This document shows positions 1 through 36,995 of a stretch of 37,159 nt of DNA, piece by piece. The notes below the pieces were generated by a model. It worked only from the letters and a program-made list of their open reading frames with translations. It had not been told where the DNA came from and searched no databases. The stretch is from NCBI GenBank assembly GCA_947447625.1, contig CANFKS010000037.1:1-37159 (forward strand), written 5' to 3'. Every line of letters begins with the position of its first letter. Positions within the stretch are counted from its first letter, which is position 1. Both the position numbers and the translations under genes were made by a program. The stretch comes from Rhodospirillales bacterium. Lineage in GTDB: Bacteria > Pseudomonadota > Alphaproteobacteria > Acetobacterales > Acetobacteraceae.

Positions 1-59
1 CCCTTCGCAACCAGCGCCAGCGCTCGCTCCCGTAGATCATTCGAATATGGTCGTGGCAT
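1..59 (-). CDS. IS630-family transposase, N-terminal fragment at the window edge
   Basis: The start codon is at 57-59 on the minus strand and the frame stays open to the left edge, giving about 19 residues beginning MPRPYSNDLRERALALV. This N-terminal pattern (basic start, then S-x-D-L-R-E-R) is typical of the helix-turn-helix domain of IS630-family transposases. The DDE catalytic domain lies outside the window, so it cannot be judged whether the gene is intact. Confidence 0.7.
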   Translation of the reverse strand, partial: MPRPYSNDLRERALALVAK

Positions 60-122
60 CGCTCCTGGCATCCTATACAGCCAGCAACTTGAATCAGATT
101 TCAGATCGCGCCGGAATCCCTA
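1..122 (-). mobile_element. End of an IS630-family insertion sequence (continues off the left edge)
   Basis: Reading leftward, the minus strand runs from a TA dinucleotide at 121-122 into a transposase start at 59. IS630/Tc1-mariner elements insert at TA and duplicate it, and the disrupted methyltransferase reading frame changes character exactly around this TA. I therefore place the element end there, with the terminal inverted repeat starting GGGATTCC on the minus strand. The other end is outside the window, so the terminal repeat pair and the target duplication cannot be verified. Confidence 0.65.
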
Positions 123-787
123 GATTCAACCTCTTGCAGACACGCTCTAACGTCGCTAAATCCTGCAGCTTCAAACAACGCGATCAATCGGGCTGGATCC
201 GAAAAGGAAAATAGGCCTGGGCCTGTCGATTTCAGGGCTTTGTTCGCATGTCGAGAGAAAATCACGACTGGTTCAGAATGTGCAGGGTTTTTATCTGCGG
301 GGGCAAAAACCAACGCTCCGAAGCGCCCCTGTGGCCGTAGGATATTGTACACTGCTTCAACCGCCGCAACAGGGTCGGGAAGCAGCATCAGGCCAAGACG
401 ACAAATTGCTGCGTCAAATTGAGCCTGATCCTGCGGCAGAGCCTCAGCGGGACACGCATGGGTTGAGATATTGCCCAGGTCCGCGGAAAGAGCTTGGCTT
501 CGAACGAAGTCGAGCATCGGTTGTGCTATATCAGTCGCCAAGACATATCCGGTTGGTCCGGCACGCCGCGCCGCAGCCAGCGATTGATCACCTGCTCCAC
601 ACGCAATATCTATGACGCGGCTGCCTGTTGTTACGCCTGCAAGGTCCAGCATGCGTTGGCTTGCATCCGCGAGCGCCTTATTGTGAACGGGCTCCCACTT
701 GGTCCAGCCGGCGGCCGCGCCGGTCCAGCGGCGAAGAGCTTCAATGTTATTTAATTTGGGATTATTATCGTGCGGAGCAGTGGACAT
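101..787 (-). pseudogene. Class I SAM-dependent methyltransferase, C-terminus cut by an IS630-family element
   Basis: The open frame gives 228 residues. A Rossmann-type SAM-binding motif I is visible at about residues 58-66 (VIDIACGAG), followed by motif II near ATD and a UbiE/methyltransferase-11-like pattern ending in the FxxAGF segment near the C-terminus. Related proteins usually continue about 40-50 residues beyond that segment. Here the frame instead runs into the presumed IS630 end at 121-122 and stops at 101, so the last seven or so residues are IS-encoded. The substrate cannot be deduced. There is no good Shine-Dalgarno sequence before the ATG at 787, only an A-rich stretch. The gene is probably non-functional, although the catalytic core is complete and some activity cannot be excluded. 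Confidence 0.75.
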
Positions 788-1049
788 TTTATTTTTCTTT
801 CGGCCACATCATTACGTGCGGCGACATGAGCCTATCCCTGCCAGATTGCATATGCAAACGGCCTGCAGCACGACAACGGAAGGTAATGCTTCAAACGAAC
901 AAAAATGCCAGGGGCCCAATTGATGATCGTTCGTTGAAGGCCGTTCACCACGAGGCGAAGCGATCGGACTTGGGATCGGGTCCGGTGGATGGCCACGCCC
1001 TTGGGGAGAGGTGGCTCGGTCTCTCGCTCCAGCGTTTCGGTTCCGTTAG
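788..1049. other. Intergenic stretch with no recognised gene
   Basis: I see no credible gene. Short open frames on both strands have no recognisable domain. The stretch lies between the truncated methyltransferase and the left end of an IS5-family remnant, and it may hold further decayed IS DNA that I could not identify. Confidence 0.4.
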
Positions 1050-1226
1050 GGAAACTCTGAAAAAGTCATTTGCGATTCGTCAGCAGTATGATTATCGGTC
1101 ATCTGACAGACCAGGATTCTCCGGATGCAACGCAGCTTTGCCGTGTATGATGGGTTCCGTAAGCAGCACGAACGCACCCGCCGCGAAACCTTTCTGGCGG
1201 AGATGGCACGCGTCGTGCCGTGGCGA
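1050..1226 (+). mobile_element. Left end of an IS5-family element, truncated by an IS256-family insertion
   Basis: A TTAG at 1046-1049 matches the YTAR target preference of IS5-family elements and is followed by a plausible terminal sequence (GGAAACTCTGAAAAAG). A transposase start at 1125 reads MQRSFAVYDGFRKQHERTRR and continues to VVPW. This is the characteristic N-terminus of IS5-group transposases, where F-L-x-E-M-x-x-V-V-P-W is strongly conserved. The match ends at 1226, exactly where the IS256-type inverted repeat begins. The read-through frame stops at 1284-1286 inside the IS256 end. Only about 34 transposase codons survive. Confidence 0.75.
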
Positions 1227-1336
1227 GGGGATGTCCCGGCCCATGTTGAAACTTTCCTGGCGGCGTTGCCTCCGTTGAGCCGATAGGCTCGGCGTGTCGA
1301 ATCCGCAAAGGAAAGCAACACCACGAGAAAGAGTAG

Positions 1337-2411
1337 AGAGAGCGGTGCGCCCACACCAGCACCAGAGGTATAACCCAAGCCTGGGACCAGGTCGGTGCCA
1401 GATTCGAGCGTTTCTGCCTGACCGCGGGGCTGATACCGAAACCCTGTGATCGCTGCTCTTCCGCGATCACAGGGTTTCGGTATGCGCGCCGGGTTGTGGG
1501 CGGCGGCGCGCGGAAAAAGACTCATACCAAGGGTCGCGCTTTGCGAGCCTTGGTATGAGTGCCTTGAGCCAAATGATGGAGCAGGACGCGGCGGCACTAT
1601 GCGGCCCGCATTATTGTCATCGCGATGGGAGGCCCGGCCATCGCTGGGGTAAGACCCAAGGCAAGATCGGCTTCCACGGCGGCAAGGTTTCGCTGGACCG
1701 TCCTCGGGTCCGCGGCCGGGGCGGCCGGGAGATGCTGGTCCCGAGATGGGAAGTCGCCCAATCGGAGGACCTGCTCGCCCGCTGGGCGATGAACCTGATG
1801 CCGATCAACGTCTCCACCCGCCGCTTTGCCTGCGCGGTGCGCCTGCCCGAAGGCGACATCCCCACGGGCAAAGGCGACGGTGTCTCGAAATCCGCCGTCT
1901 CACGCACACACCGATCCAGCGCTGCCAGATCCACAAGGGCCGCAACATCTTGGAGCGATTGCCGAAACACCTGCACGCCTCGGTCCGGCGAACGCTCCGC
2001 CAGGCCTGGGAACTGGATGATGTGGGGAAGGCGGAACAACTGCTCCGCAATCTTGCGCGTCGACTGGAGCAGGAGGCGCCCGGCGTGTCCGAGACCATCC
2101 TCGAGGGGATCGGCGAAATCCTGACTGTGGTGCGCCTGAAGCTGCCCCCGCAACTCCGCCGTTCCCTGGCCTGCACCAACATCATCGAGAACATGATGGG
2201 CACAATCCGGCGCGTATGCCGCAACGAGACGCACTGGCGGAATGCCGCGATGGCGCTCCACTGGACCGGGGCGGCCATCCAGGAAGCCGCCAAGGGGTTT
2301 CGGCGGTTGAAGGCTCACAAGCAGTTGCCGGCCTTGCAGGCGGCACTCCGTGCGATCCAGACACAACAGGACGCCGACAGGGGCGTTGCCCCCGAAGCCG
2401 TCGCTGCATAG
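1337..2411 (+). pseudogene. IS256-family transposase, interrupted and internally deleted
   Basis: Three blocks of the transposase can be read. The first is 1337-1432, ending WDQVGARFERFCLTAG. The second is 1558-1905, from ALSQMMEQD through IGFHGGK, RPRVRG, AMNLMPINVSTR and SKSAVSR. The third, from about 1906 to 2411, runs from HTPIQRCQIHK through LACTNIIENMMG to GFRRLKAHKQLP. Blocks one and two are separated by the 122-bp double-hairpin insert. At about 1900-1907 block two jumps directly to block three in another frame, so the central region that normally follows SKSA is missing. In this family that region carries the catalytic aspartates. The gene is clearly inactive. Confidence 0.85.
1434..1555. 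repeat. 122-bp double-hairpin cassette inserted in the IS256 transposase, flanked by TGA
   Basis: Hairpin 1 spans 1433-1483: 1433-1453 pairs perfectly with 1463-1483 (21 bp) around a 9-nt loop. Hairpin 2 spans 1520-1560: 1520-1532 pairs with 1548-1560 (13 bp) and an inner TCGC/GCGA stem extends it. The cassette begins TACC and ends GGTA, with TGA at 1431-1433 and again at 1556-1558. Removing the cassette plus one TGA (125 bp) gives the codons ACC GCG GGG CTG AGT GCC TTG AGC, which join the two transposase blocks in frame as TAGLSALSQMMEQD. This indicates a discrete insertion event, perhaps of a REPIN- or MITE-like element. Confidence 0.75.
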
Positions 2412-2466
2412 GGTCTTACCGGACGATGGCCGCCAGGCGAGTTTCAACAGAGCGCGGGACATCCCC

Positions 2467-2559
2467 AGCCGCCGCGCTTGGCGGGTAGTATCAGCGGGGC
2501 GATCAGCAACTATTCGTCGTCGGTCAGATCACTCAGATAACGCAGATTGCTGCGGTCAT
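2467..2559 (-). pseudogene. N-terminal remnant of a second IS5-family (IS427-like) transposase
   Basis: On the minus strand, from an ATG at 2559, the sequence reads MT, then after a one-base frame correction RSNLRYLSDLTDDE, a TAG stop at 2510-2512, then LLIAPLILPAKRGG. The S-D-L-T-D-x-E-W-x-L-I-x-P-L-x-P-x-A-K-R-G-G pattern is the standard N-terminus of IS427-group IS5 transposases; here the conserved Trp has become a stop. The remnant ends abruptly at the right end of the IS256 element, and the rest of the gene is missing. Confidence 0.75.
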
Positions 2560-2592
2560 CACGCCCCCCTCCGCGCCAAGAACAGGCAGACT

Positions 2593-2634
2593 TAGAGCAG
2601 GATGCCTTCGCCTATCAGAAGGCATCCTGCTCTA
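2593..2634. repeat. Palindromic repeat, hairpin A only, overlapping the speE stop codon
   Basis: Perfect 17-bp arms at 2593-2609 and 2618-2634 (TAGAGCAGGATGCCTTC and its complement) enclose an 8-nt loop. The same hairpin occurs at 3551-3594 and 24698-24740, and in degenerate form at 36899-36932. Here the conserved spacer and hairpin B that accompany the other copies are absent. The TAG stop of speE (2632-2634 read on the minus strand) lies within the right arm, so the repeat may also act as a transcription terminator or 3'-end stabiliser. Confidence 0.85.
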
Positions 2635-3498
2635 GCGGGGCAGATGCTTAGATATATAAGGCGGCAGGTTGAACGCACCTGCATGGATCTCAGGCGTCCA
2701 ATACTGCGTCGAGCCCAGTATGCCAGCCGCCTGCGCCCGAGTGCGGATCACGTCGGTTGGGACCTGGTCAAAACCCGGGGCCTTAGAGGCAAAACCCAAC
2801 GTCATGTAGCCGCCGACATAGGTCGGCACCGCCGCGACGTAGGCGCCGACATGCGGAAAGAAGCGAGCGCGTCGAATGCTGGTGTCGTGCAGTTCGTCGG
2901 CCTGCATGGCAGGCACGCCGCATTGGTTCACGATCACGCCGCTGGCGGTCAGGATACGGGCGGCATTTTCGTAGAACTCGTCGGTGAACAGGACTTCTCC
3001 GACACCGATCGGATCGGTTGAGTCGACGATGATGGCGTCGAACATCGCTGCCGGGGCCCGTCGAACATAGTCGATTCCATCTCCAACGATCACCTCAGCG
3101 CGCGGGTCATGCCACGCATCGCCAGCGATCCCGGGCAGGAACTCCTTGCTGAGCCGGATCACCTCGCCATCGATTTCCACCATCACGGCGCGCTCGACAG
3201 ACCCATGCTGAAGGACTCGACGGAGCACGCCGCCGTCACCGGCGCCAATAATGAGGACATTGCGTGCTGCACCATGGCCCAGCACAGGAACGTGGGCGAT
3301 CATTTCCTGGTAGACGAACTCATCGGACTCGGTGATCTGAACCACCCCATCGAGAAGCATGATCCGTCCATGGGTGTAGGTCTCGAAAATCCCTATGTCC
3401 TGGAAGTCGCTCTGCACACGAGCCAGTTCGCGCTTCACTTTGAAGCGCTGCCCCCACGCGGCGTAAAGGGTCTCATTAATCCAGGAATCGACCGACAT
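2632..3498 (-). CDS. speE: Spermidine synthase (polyamine aminopropyltransferase)
   Basis: This enzyme transfers the aminopropyl group of decarboxylated SAM to putrescine, making spermidine in the cytoplasm. The 288-residue protein starts MSVDSWINETLYAAWGQRF, as the family does. It carries the nucleotide-binding GAGDGG motif (residues 85-90), VEID (107-110), GDG (about 139-141) and the VDSTDP segment (158-163) with the catalytic Asp. I chose the ATG at 3498 because AAGGG stands 8 nt upstream. A longer in-frame start at 3612 exists, but its 38 extra residues are a translation of the palindromic repeat and are not family-like. speD, which supplies its substrate, lies upstream on the same strand. 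Confidence 0.93.
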   Translation of the reverse strand: MSVDSWINETLYAAWGQRFKVKRELARVQSDFQDIGIFETYTHGRIMLLDGVVQITESDEFVYQEMIAHVPVLGHGAARNVLIIGAGDGGVLRRVLQHGSVERAVMVEIDGEVIRLSKEFLPGIAGDAWHDPRAEVIVGDGIDYVRRAPAAMFDAIIVDSTDPIGVGEVLFTDEFYENAARILTASGVIVNQCGVPAMQADELHDTSIRRARFFPHVGAYVAAVPTYVGGYMTLGFASKAPGFDQVPTDVIRTRAQAAGILGSTQYWTPEIHAGAFNLPPYISKHLPR

Positions 3499-3550
3499 GT
3501 GCATGTCCCTTGGCATAGTTTGGGCCGGATACTGATCGGCACCTGGCCCG

Positions 3551-3655
3551 TTAGAGTGGGATGCCTTCTGATAGACGAAGGCATCCCGCTCTAACGCTTT
3601 GTTTCGTCGCATGATTCAAATTTTTGGCGGTTCCACCAAAAATTATCAGGCTCCA
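3551..3655. repeat. Composite palindromic repeat (hairpin A, spacer, hairpin B) between speD and speE
   Basis: Hairpin A has 18-bp arms at 3551-3568 and 3577-3594 around the core GGATGCCTTC, with one T:G position. The spacer contains CTTTGTTTCGTCGCATGATT. Hairpin B, about 3619-3643, is built on the TTTTTGG/CCAAAAA core and is more degenerate here; the unit ends near CAGGCTCC. The order and spacing match the copies at 24637 (inverted) and 36893. One strand keeps an open frame through the unit, which artificially extends the speE frame upstream. Confidence 0.85.
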
Positions 3656-3677
3656 GAATTGTCGCAGAACGCAGAAA

Positions 3678-4157
3678 CTATACGACCCGCCCACGGCGCT
3701 GTTCGTCCACGTCGACACGCTCGGGCGAAAACGCGCGCTGAAGGACCGGAATCGACAGGTTCGGGTCACACACACCGCACATGAACAGATCGATCGCGGC
3801 AAAATTCCGCTCGGGCCACGTGTGGATCGAGATATGGCTCTCCGCGAGCACCACGACCCCCGACACGCCGCCATTGGGCGTGAAATGGTGAAAATGGCTG
3901 TGCAGAATCGTCGCCCCAGCGACGATCGCTGCTTCGCGCAGAGCCTCGTCAATCCAAGCCGGCTCATCGAGGCGGCTGGCGCCCCATAGGTCGACGAGCA
4001 GATGCGTACCAGCAAACGTCATCCCGTCCCTCTGGACGAAATAATCGGTTCGCTCATCGGCACCATCGTGCCCAGGTTGTGCCTCGCGGCGAGCAGTGTT
4101 CGTCTGGTTCTCGCTCGGCAGATCCGAGACCATCCCCAGTGGCGCGAGCGCGTTCAT
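3678..4157 (-). CDS. speD: S-adenosylmethionine decarboxylase proenzyme
   Basis: This pyruvoyl-dependent enzyme decarboxylates SAM to the aminopropyl donor used by SpeE. The 159-residue proenzyme contains the bacterial SpeD core GTHLLVDLWG (50-59) and the self-cleavage region LAESHISIHTWPE: cleavage is expected between Glu106 and Ser107, with Ser107 becoming the pyruvoyl group. Catalytic-type residues His112 and Cys127 (FMCG) are present. The ATG at 4157 was chosen because GGGAG lies 8 nt upstream. Its N-terminal 40 residues are longer and more polar than in the shortest family members, and Met46 just before the core could be an alternative start. speE follows downstream after the composite repeat, so the two probably share transcription unless the repeat terminates it. 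Confidence 0.92.
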   Translation of the reverse strand: MNALAPLGMVSDLPSENQTNTARREAQPGHDGADERTDYFVQRDGMTFAGTHLLVDLWGASRLDEPAWIDEALREAAIVAGATILHSHFHHFTPNGGVSGVVVLAESHISIHTWPERNFAAIDLFMCGVCDPNLSIPVLQRAFSPERVDVDEQRRGRVV

Positions 4158-4326
4158 GACGCAATCTCCCTTTCCGACCAGTAGACAGCCTTTTGGTCCA
4201 CGCGCCTCATGCACGTTTTCCCTTGGGCTAAGGCGGCGGAACATGATCAAAGGGGGGGGCGTGCGCAAGCGAAAAATGCGACTGGAATGTGATTTTCTGT
4301 TCATGACATTTAGCATGGCACACACA
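4158..4326. promoter_or_regulatory. Leader region upstream of speD
   Basis: This 169-nt gap separates the stop of the 931-residue protein gene from speD, both on the minus strand. It contains a run of eight G at 4252-4259 and a local AT-rich stretch at about 4262-4325. I see no riboswitch or convincing -35/-10 pair, but it is the obvious place for a speD promoter. Confidence 0.3.
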
Positions 4327-24636: not shown

Positions 24637-24740
24637 TAGAGCCTGATGATTTTTGGTGGAATCACCAAAAATCTGAATCAGGCGATCAAACAAAGAGTTA
24701 GAGCCGGATGCCTTCGCTATCAGAAGGCATCCGGCTCTAA
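24637..24740. repeat. Composite palindromic repeat (hairpin B, spacer, hairpin A), inverted copy
   Basis: Hairpin B (about 24641-24683) pairs GATTTTTGGTG with CACCAAAAATC. The spacer GATCAAACAAAGAG is the reverse complement of the spacer in the other copies. Hairpin A has perfect 18-bp arms at 24698-24715 and 24723-24740 around GGATGCCTTC and a 7-nt loop. The unit starts TAGAGC and ends GCTCTA, and is 104 bp long. The TAG stop of the acyltransferase-like gene lies within the right arm (24737-24739 on the minus strand). Confidence 0.88.
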
Positions 24741-36886: not shown

Positions 36887-36892
36887 TATCGA

Positions 36893-36995
36893 ACGAGGGC
36901 GGGATGCCTTCCGAGAGGTGAATGCATCCCGCTCCACCTCTTTGTTCGACCGCATGATGATTTTTGGTGATCCCACCAAAAATCATCATGCTCCA
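36893..36995. repeat. Composite palindromic repeat (degenerate hairpin A, spacer, perfect hairpin B)
   Basis: Hairpin A is decayed here: only GCGGGATGC (36899-36907) and GCATCCCGC (36924-36932) still pair. The spacer CTCTTTGTTCGACCGC is conserved. Hairpin B is perfect: 36952-36969 pairs with 36974-36991 (18 bp, 4-nt loop, core ATGATTTTTGGTG). The unit lies between two convergent genes, 7 nt after the solute-binding protein stop, and could terminate transcription from both. Confidence 0.88.

Follow-up and report, generated by a model that had tools for sequence, protein, structure and literature searches.

A double-hairpin DNA repeat with three-base target duplications, dispersed in a genome of the Acetobacteraceae

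The DNA analysed here, referred to as the window, is a stretch of 37,159 nucleotides from a Rhodospirillales bacterium of the family Acetobacteraceae (assembly GCA_947447625.1, contig CANFKS010000037.1). Near its left end lies the remnant of an insertion sequence (IS) of the IS256 family, the two ends of which match one another at 84%, and inside the remnant sits a non-coding unit of 122 bases (1434-1555). The unit begins with TACC (1434-1437), ends with GGTA (1552-1555) and is bordered on either side by TGA (Table 1). All of these signposts had been named in an original prediction made from the letters of the window, and all were confirmed on the sequence; its reading that the unit encodes nothing was likewise upheld.

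The unit is dominated by two strong hairpins. The first has a 21-bp stem without a mismatch (1433-1453 with 1463-1483) and a loop of 9 nt, as predicted, while the second, for which at least 13 bp had been claimed, proves longer and forms 17 of 18 pairs (1520-1537 with 1543-1560). Between them lies a GC-rich hairpin of 8 bp (1484-1491 with 1504-1511) that was absent from the prediction. It belongs to a core that usually has 29 nt (GCGCGCCGGGTTGGTGGGCGGCGGCGCGC) and that is one G short in the window copy. The DNA fold of positions 1425-1565 reaches -58.6 kcal/mol versus a shuffled mean of -25.9 (z = -11.65; 0 of 200 shuffles), and the element folded as RNA is likewise very stable (z = -11.84).

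Table 1. Position of the element, its parts and its host in the window
Feature	Position	Strand	Basis
IS256-family insertion sequence remnant hosting the element	1227..2466	+	inverted-repeat ends 1227-1264 and 2429-2466
Target duplication, left copy (TGA)	1431..1433	.	sequence; single-TGA site in G001:C150; family statistics
Hairpin 1, TACC..GGTA, 49 nt, 20-bp stem, 9-nt loop	1434..1482	+	fold; 49 nt in 24/26 versions; covarying pairs
GC-rich core with its own 8-bp hairpin	1484..1511	+	fold; alignment of own copies; exact core in 24/200 family genomes
A-rich linker and foot of hairpin 2	1512..1524	+	GANTC (CcrM-type) site GACTC 1519-1523; foot GANTC in 17/26 versions
Hairpin 2, TACC..GGTA, 31 nt	1525..1555	+	stem runs outward via foot and right flank to 1520-1560
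Target duplication, right copy (TGA)	1556..1558	.	sequence; empty site; family statistics

The host open reading frame (1746-2411) matches PF00872 above its cut-off and NF033543 at 92.5 bits, below the cut-off of 150, and of these models only the C-terminal part is matched. Stretches in two other genomes (G001 and G018) are 74-83% identical to this IS256; in the G001 relative, two alignment blocks lie 354 bases apart (subject 509 to 864), as against 38 bases in the window (query 763 to 802). The original prediction spoke of an insertion into an IS256 transposase gene, with excision on paper giving an uninterrupted transposase block. The family identity stands (PF00872), but apart from the insertion the gene is not intact: the host is an IS remnant, shorter than the G001 relative, that carries the element inside it.

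A related IS256 copy in a genome of the same genus (G001, contig C150) lacks the element and has one TGA in its place, with nothing in between. On either side of the site, the aligned block is 76% identical to the window copy; the two blocks overlap by 7 bases and have the one TGA in common. Element-free orthologous sites with a single TGA had been named as possible support for mobility, and the single TGA was found; the site itself, the sole clean one obtained, is homologous and lies in another, related IS copy, so that orthology is unproven. A second empty site was sought at locus L018, where genome G003 aligns as far as query base 396, just before the element; the right flank lies 882 bases off and the site is not clean.

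The source genome is a draft of 4.28 Mb in 197 contigs that is 96% complete. It contains 29 places with near-full-length copies, each 90-100% identical to the query over no fewer than 118 of its 130 bases. Since scoring covered 40 of the 69 first-look candidates, this count may be a lower bound; L022 and L039, both among the 29, have a left flank in common and may be one insertion. The many dispersed copies that had been foreseen are thus present. A dozen or more partial matches occur besides, some of which are units of arrays, and matches that lack the full core have the appearance of deletions. When the own copies are aligned with their flanks, identity ends at TACC on the left and at GGTA on the right, the TNA triplets excepted. 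Because identity stops at these ends and a related IS256 has the empty site, the element entered as a unit, as had been proposed. With dozens of near-identical and probably recent copies, the source genome is a place to look for a mobilising enzyme. Tandem arrays occur at six places of the genome (contigs C141, C185, C172, C118, C39 and C21; array loci L026, L029, L030, L035, L038 and L039). Their repeated unit is either the core together with hairpin 2 or the core by itself, and they form a BIME-like mosaic.

For statistics on the flanking triplets, elements were called by the core and two hairpins in the loci up to L247. This gave 68 calls, 10 of which were removed by an array filter, and the remaining 58 comprised 21 own elements, 121-125 bp long and representing 21 of the 29 own places, and 37 foreign ones, among which no own copy was refetched. 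The triplet before TACC equals the triplet after GGTA in 16 of the 21 own elements (shuffled mean 8.5) and in 30 of the 37 foreign ones (shuffled mean 18.3), values reached by none of 20,000 shuffles in either case; the matched triplets include TGA, TAA, TTA and TCA. Scored by eye on the 29 own rows minus three arrays and one truncated copy, triplets are equal in 18 of 25. Another caller, which misplaced some right ends, gave 11 of 19 for the own elements (reached by 3.8% of shuffles) and 26 of 38 for the others (reached by none). Together with the single TGA at the empty site, these counts bear out the 3-bp duplication that had been predicted. Unequal triplets border five own and seven foreign elements. 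In four of these five and two of these seven, the right triplet is reverse-complementary to hairpin 2's internal foot, and in the reverse case (L008 and L021) the foot follows the flank. Hairpin-templated correction at replication would explain both.

Among the 58 elements the left triplet is TGA in 39, TAA in 10, TTA in 5, TCA in 3 and CAA in 1; where no frame of at least 100 codons ends, the numbers are TGA 13, TAA 7, TTA 2, TCA 1 and CAA 1. As TGA far outnumbers TCA, the target has an orientation. Of the 49 elements with enough flank, 18 have as their left triplet the stop codon that closes a frame of 150 codons or more, against 4.3 expected from all [CG]TGA and [CG]TAA sites in the same loci; on the right side, reverse frames end in 3 of 49. 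Selection against insertions within genes could yield such an enrichment at stop codons without any targeting.

The original description of the element as MITE-like holds for its size, its duplication and its dispersal, and falls short in that the terminal inverted repeats amount only to TACC/GGTA and a few bases and that no parent was found in the loci examined. TA is the usual target duplication of the MITEs RUP, Correia/NEMIS and ERIC, whereas here it is TNA. These MITEs have TA at their termini, and the targets of RUP contain TA. According to the available text of a 2007 review (PMC2229807), RUP, Correia/NEMIS and ERIC are short and dispersed with a target duplication, as is the present element, and fold by pairing of their two ends, while each end here is a hairpin of its own. 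MITE terminal inverted repeats are given as 15-30 bp in the accessible part of PMC3733652, unlike the TACC/GGTA and partly alike bases found here. As for a parent, 66 hairpin-1-like sequences were met in loci mostly chosen for the element or its core, and 65 of them are followed by the core and one by a core variant. Generic inverted-end searches of the loci yielded one clear pair, that of L193, whose letters are different, and clustering of open frames across the loci for a shared transposase gave nothing transposase-like, as judged by eye from the frame starts. In a draft that is 96% complete, the transposase could be missing from the assembly.

A narrower version of the same idea, that the element is a MITE of an IS5-type (IS1031-like) insertion sequence with a TNA target, we regard as possible but tentative. 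IS1031-type elements use a TNA target, which fits the 3-bp TNA duplication; PF13340 and PF01609 both have matches in the source genome; and the ends of a second repeat of this genome, family B, described below, resemble those of the IS5-type element in L193. However, none of eight transposase loci with PF13340 or PF01609 has TACC..GGTA ends together with equal flanking triplets. A symmetric TNA target would, furthermore, give TGA and TCA equally, and the ratio of 39 to 3 at the left end, or 13 to 1 where no frame of at least 100 codons ends, disfavours it.

The hairpins keep their shape while their letters change. Hairpin-1 sequences below 80% identity were taken as distinct versions, of which there are 26 among the 58 elements. 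Hairpin 1 is exactly 49 nt long in 24 of them, and the other two bear a 31-nt hairpin like hairpin 2. Mean identity among the versions is 41-44% in the stem arms, 81% in the loop, 90% at the TACC end and 92% at the GGTA end; TACC/GGTA is present at nearly all ends, and the bases further in are only partly alike. In the hairpin-1 alignment (24 sequences, 480 cells), 92.5% of the cells are standard pairs, both-sided changes occur in 18 of the 20 stem pairs, and the covariation score is 0.774 versus 0.213 for shuffled and at most 0.163 for slid alignments. Since the caller required pairing in the outer 12 pairs, the outer figures are inflated and pairs 13-20 serve as the unselected test; double changes are found in all eight. 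The core is 97% identical across the 15 of 26 versions that have the commonest length, a figure inflated because most foreign loci were chosen by an exact core match.

Such stems might also belong to a structured RNA gene or a 3' UTR element that is kept for its RNA function and spread along with its host regions, and the stable RNA fold (z = -11.84), the stem covariation and the enrichment directly after stop codons would all agree with this. Against it, G-U accounts for 9 of the 45 non-Watson-Crick cells of hairpin 1 (20%), close to the one in six expected if no mismatch is favoured, which speaks for pairing as DNA and against selection as RNA. No Rfam family reached its threshold in window 1-4200, where weak microRNA matches fell far below it, and the equal flanking triplets and the empty site show insertion. 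We therefore consider an RNA role very unlikely; paired changes without an excess of G-U suggest a DNA structure kept by replication.

Still less credible, and largely refuted, is the reading as a REPIN, in which a RAYT (Y1 tyrosine transposase) would mobilise a pair of inverted REP hairpins. The original prediction had offered it as one possibility, and a short non-coding unit that is dispersed and has two hairpins would agree with it. These hairpins, however, differ from each other and are not a doubled REP, inspection by eye showed neither a GTAG nor a CGTC tag beside them, and a target duplication is present; to our knowledge, HUH enzymes make none. A search for PF01797 (Y1_Tnp), which matches 5 of 14 control genomes, found no match in the 96% complete draft of the source genome or in four other element-bearing genomes (G003, G011, G016 and G018). 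Y1_Tnp matches occur in 10 of 60 genomes, the source genome being counted among the 60, and include three with element matches, G023 and G034 above the cut-off and G001 below it, so that a RAYT has no consistent link with the element among its relatives. REPINs and the GTAG and CGTC REPs, as presented in the accessible part of PMC3733652, share with the element the paired hairpins and clustered units, and differ from it in the points just listed.

We favour, with a probability of about 0.8, the reading of the element as a mobile DNA repeat that is non-autonomous and keeps to one plan, in which hairpin 1 is followed by a GC-rich core, an A-rich linker and hairpin 2. It inserts whole at a TNA target that has an orientation, usually TGA and often a stop codon, and duplicates the three bases. 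Its dispersal, its entry as a unit, the duplication, one empty homologous site and the upkeep of the hairpin-1 stem through paired changes are shown here; a transposase acting in trans would move it. That enzyme is probably of the DDE type, the best inference from the fixed short duplication left behind, and would cut at the TACC/GGTA ends; a DDE transposon would ordinarily have much longer terminal inverted repeats, which counts against this reading. At replication the hairpins may be extruded as single-stranded DNA. Template switching on the extruded hairpins would then keep the stems palindromic, and the hairpins may present the ends and their GANTC sites to proteins.

GANTC sites are concentrated in the element. 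The 26 distinct versions have 29 of them in 3,475 bp (1 per 120), versus 1 per 692 over all loci, and they are located in the loop of hairpin 1 (12 of 26 versions) and the foot of hairpin 2 (17 of 26) and nowhere else. Scored by eye, the loop site is kept in 3 of the 29 own rows, and the window copy has the foot site only. The source genome encodes a methylase of the CcrM type, which matches PF18755 above the cut-off (among 14 control genomes, Caulobacter alone does so) and also PF01555, has 6pbd as its closest solved structure (E 1.5e-143), and scores 621.8 bits with NF050803, below the cut-off of 830.

This brings to mind repeats of other Alphaproteobacteria. RIME of Rhizobium is an intergenic repeat with two large palindromes in about 108 bp, and the element is like it, going by general description, in being an intergenic-type repeat of Alphaproteobacteria with two palindromes. 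CIR (Caulobacter CcrM-associated intergenic repeats, CIR1-4) are described in the available text of PMC2229807 as repeats of Alphaproteobacteria of about 110 bp in which a linker joins two inverted-repeat arms. One of the arms has GANTC in or at its loop, both termini are TA, and a terminal inverted repeat is lacking. The element has the same two arms and linker in 121-125 bp, and TA termini too, within TACC..GGTA in the window copy and most distinct versions; GANTC, however, is in the first loop in only 12 of 26 versions. The target duplication of CIR has a question mark in a table of that review, whereas the present family has a 3-bp duplication and an empty site. In the accessible part of a 2024 MITE review (PMC10969869), CIR is described as strictly intergenic, while the window copy interrupts an IS256 remnant. 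By its architecture, as compared with this description, the element belongs with the CIR repeats, the closest known kind. CIR-type two-arm repeats have been known in Alphaproteobacteria since 2003, and the 2007 review, in the text available, left their mobility open (PMC2229807). For the present family the unit is exactly delimited, three bases are duplicated, an empty site is at hand, the target follows a rule and the constraint on structure has been measured; its evidence for mobility is better than that given for CIR in the accessible parts of the two reviews (PMC2229807, PMC10969869).

An oriented target and stems that conserve shape are odd for a plain MITE, and they raise a bolder reading that we hold to be speculative and rather unlikely. 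The element, family B and perhaps CIR and RIME would form a class of DNA-hairpin transposons of Alphaproteobacteria, whose extruded single-stranded hairpins are recognised by shape and not by letters. Hairpin-templated correction would leave the stems free to drift, with the length, the loop and the 29-bp core remaining fixed; insertion would be aimed at stop codons, and CcrM methylation of the GANTC sites in loop and foot would tie movement to replication. Relatives in which the hairpins keep their shape while the letters change offer a way to study how such repeats move.

Beyond the source genome, the family is seen mainly in Acetobacteraceae. At E 0.001 the 130-base query found matches in 17 of 60 genomes, some of which show no more than short core-like stretches. 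An exact core is present in 24 of 200 family genomes and in 2 of 385 genomes sampled from the class (the source genome being counted each time), and the reversed control pattern of the core is absent from both of the latter sets. Among the matches listed (104 stretches), full elements are found in Limobrevibacterium gyesilva and Acidisphaera, and the core alone in Rhodopila globiformis (Acetobacteraceae). A metagenome-assembled genome labelled Nevskia (L143) has one element-like copy, and the core without the two hairpins occurs in Robiginitomaculum, Thalassospira, Rhizobium alvei, Pacificispira, Parvularculaceae and Tokpelaia. Among 72,556 plasmid records none matched at E 0.001, and viral contigs gave two stretches with the core only. 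A literature search for the letter string of the core returned no match; titles and opening lines of abstracts of the papers listed contain no description of this repeat family, nor do the accessible parts of PMC11109978 and PMC1273637. We regard the family as new within a kind of repeat that is already known, and as both CIR-like and MITE-like.

Lone 29-bp cores lie beside tRNA-Ala or tRNA-Ile genes (L078:147-175, L124:3631-3659 and L169 near 1030-1100), in Thalassospira, in Rhizobium alvei and at one further locus. They occur in both orientations, and their setting resembles that of an rRNA spacer. In Robiginitomaculum antarcticum (L075, L106, L117 and L123), the core is embedded in a different repeat, where GCGATGGCCCATYGRGTGACCACAT precedes it, and L159 looks the same.

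Family B, likewise a double-hairpin repeat, is about 100 bp long (GAGCCTGATGATTTTTGG..GGCATCCCGCTC) and TA-flanked in most copies, with the same plan as the 122-base element and a similar AAACAAAGAG linker. It has dozens of copies in the source genome (40 of 278 first-look candidates were scored), and GANTC is present in the first loop of 29 of 32 copies. At three loci (L003, L009 and L036) a family B repeat has the element at its end, the element being flanked by TTA (left) and TGA (right). L193:1411-2248 is an IS5-type element with perfect 14-bp ends (GAGCGCGTTGACAT) adjoining TA, the right one at the contig end, and is a possible parent of family B. In the window, family B occurs at about 3554-3653 (-), about 24638-24737 (+) and about 36890-36995 (-), with the hairpin only at 2593-2634. 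Genes for a spermidine synthase and an S-adenosylmethionine decarboxylase are adjacent at window 2632-3612 and 3678-4325, and family B sequence is found around the start of the first gene of this pair and in the intergenic gap.
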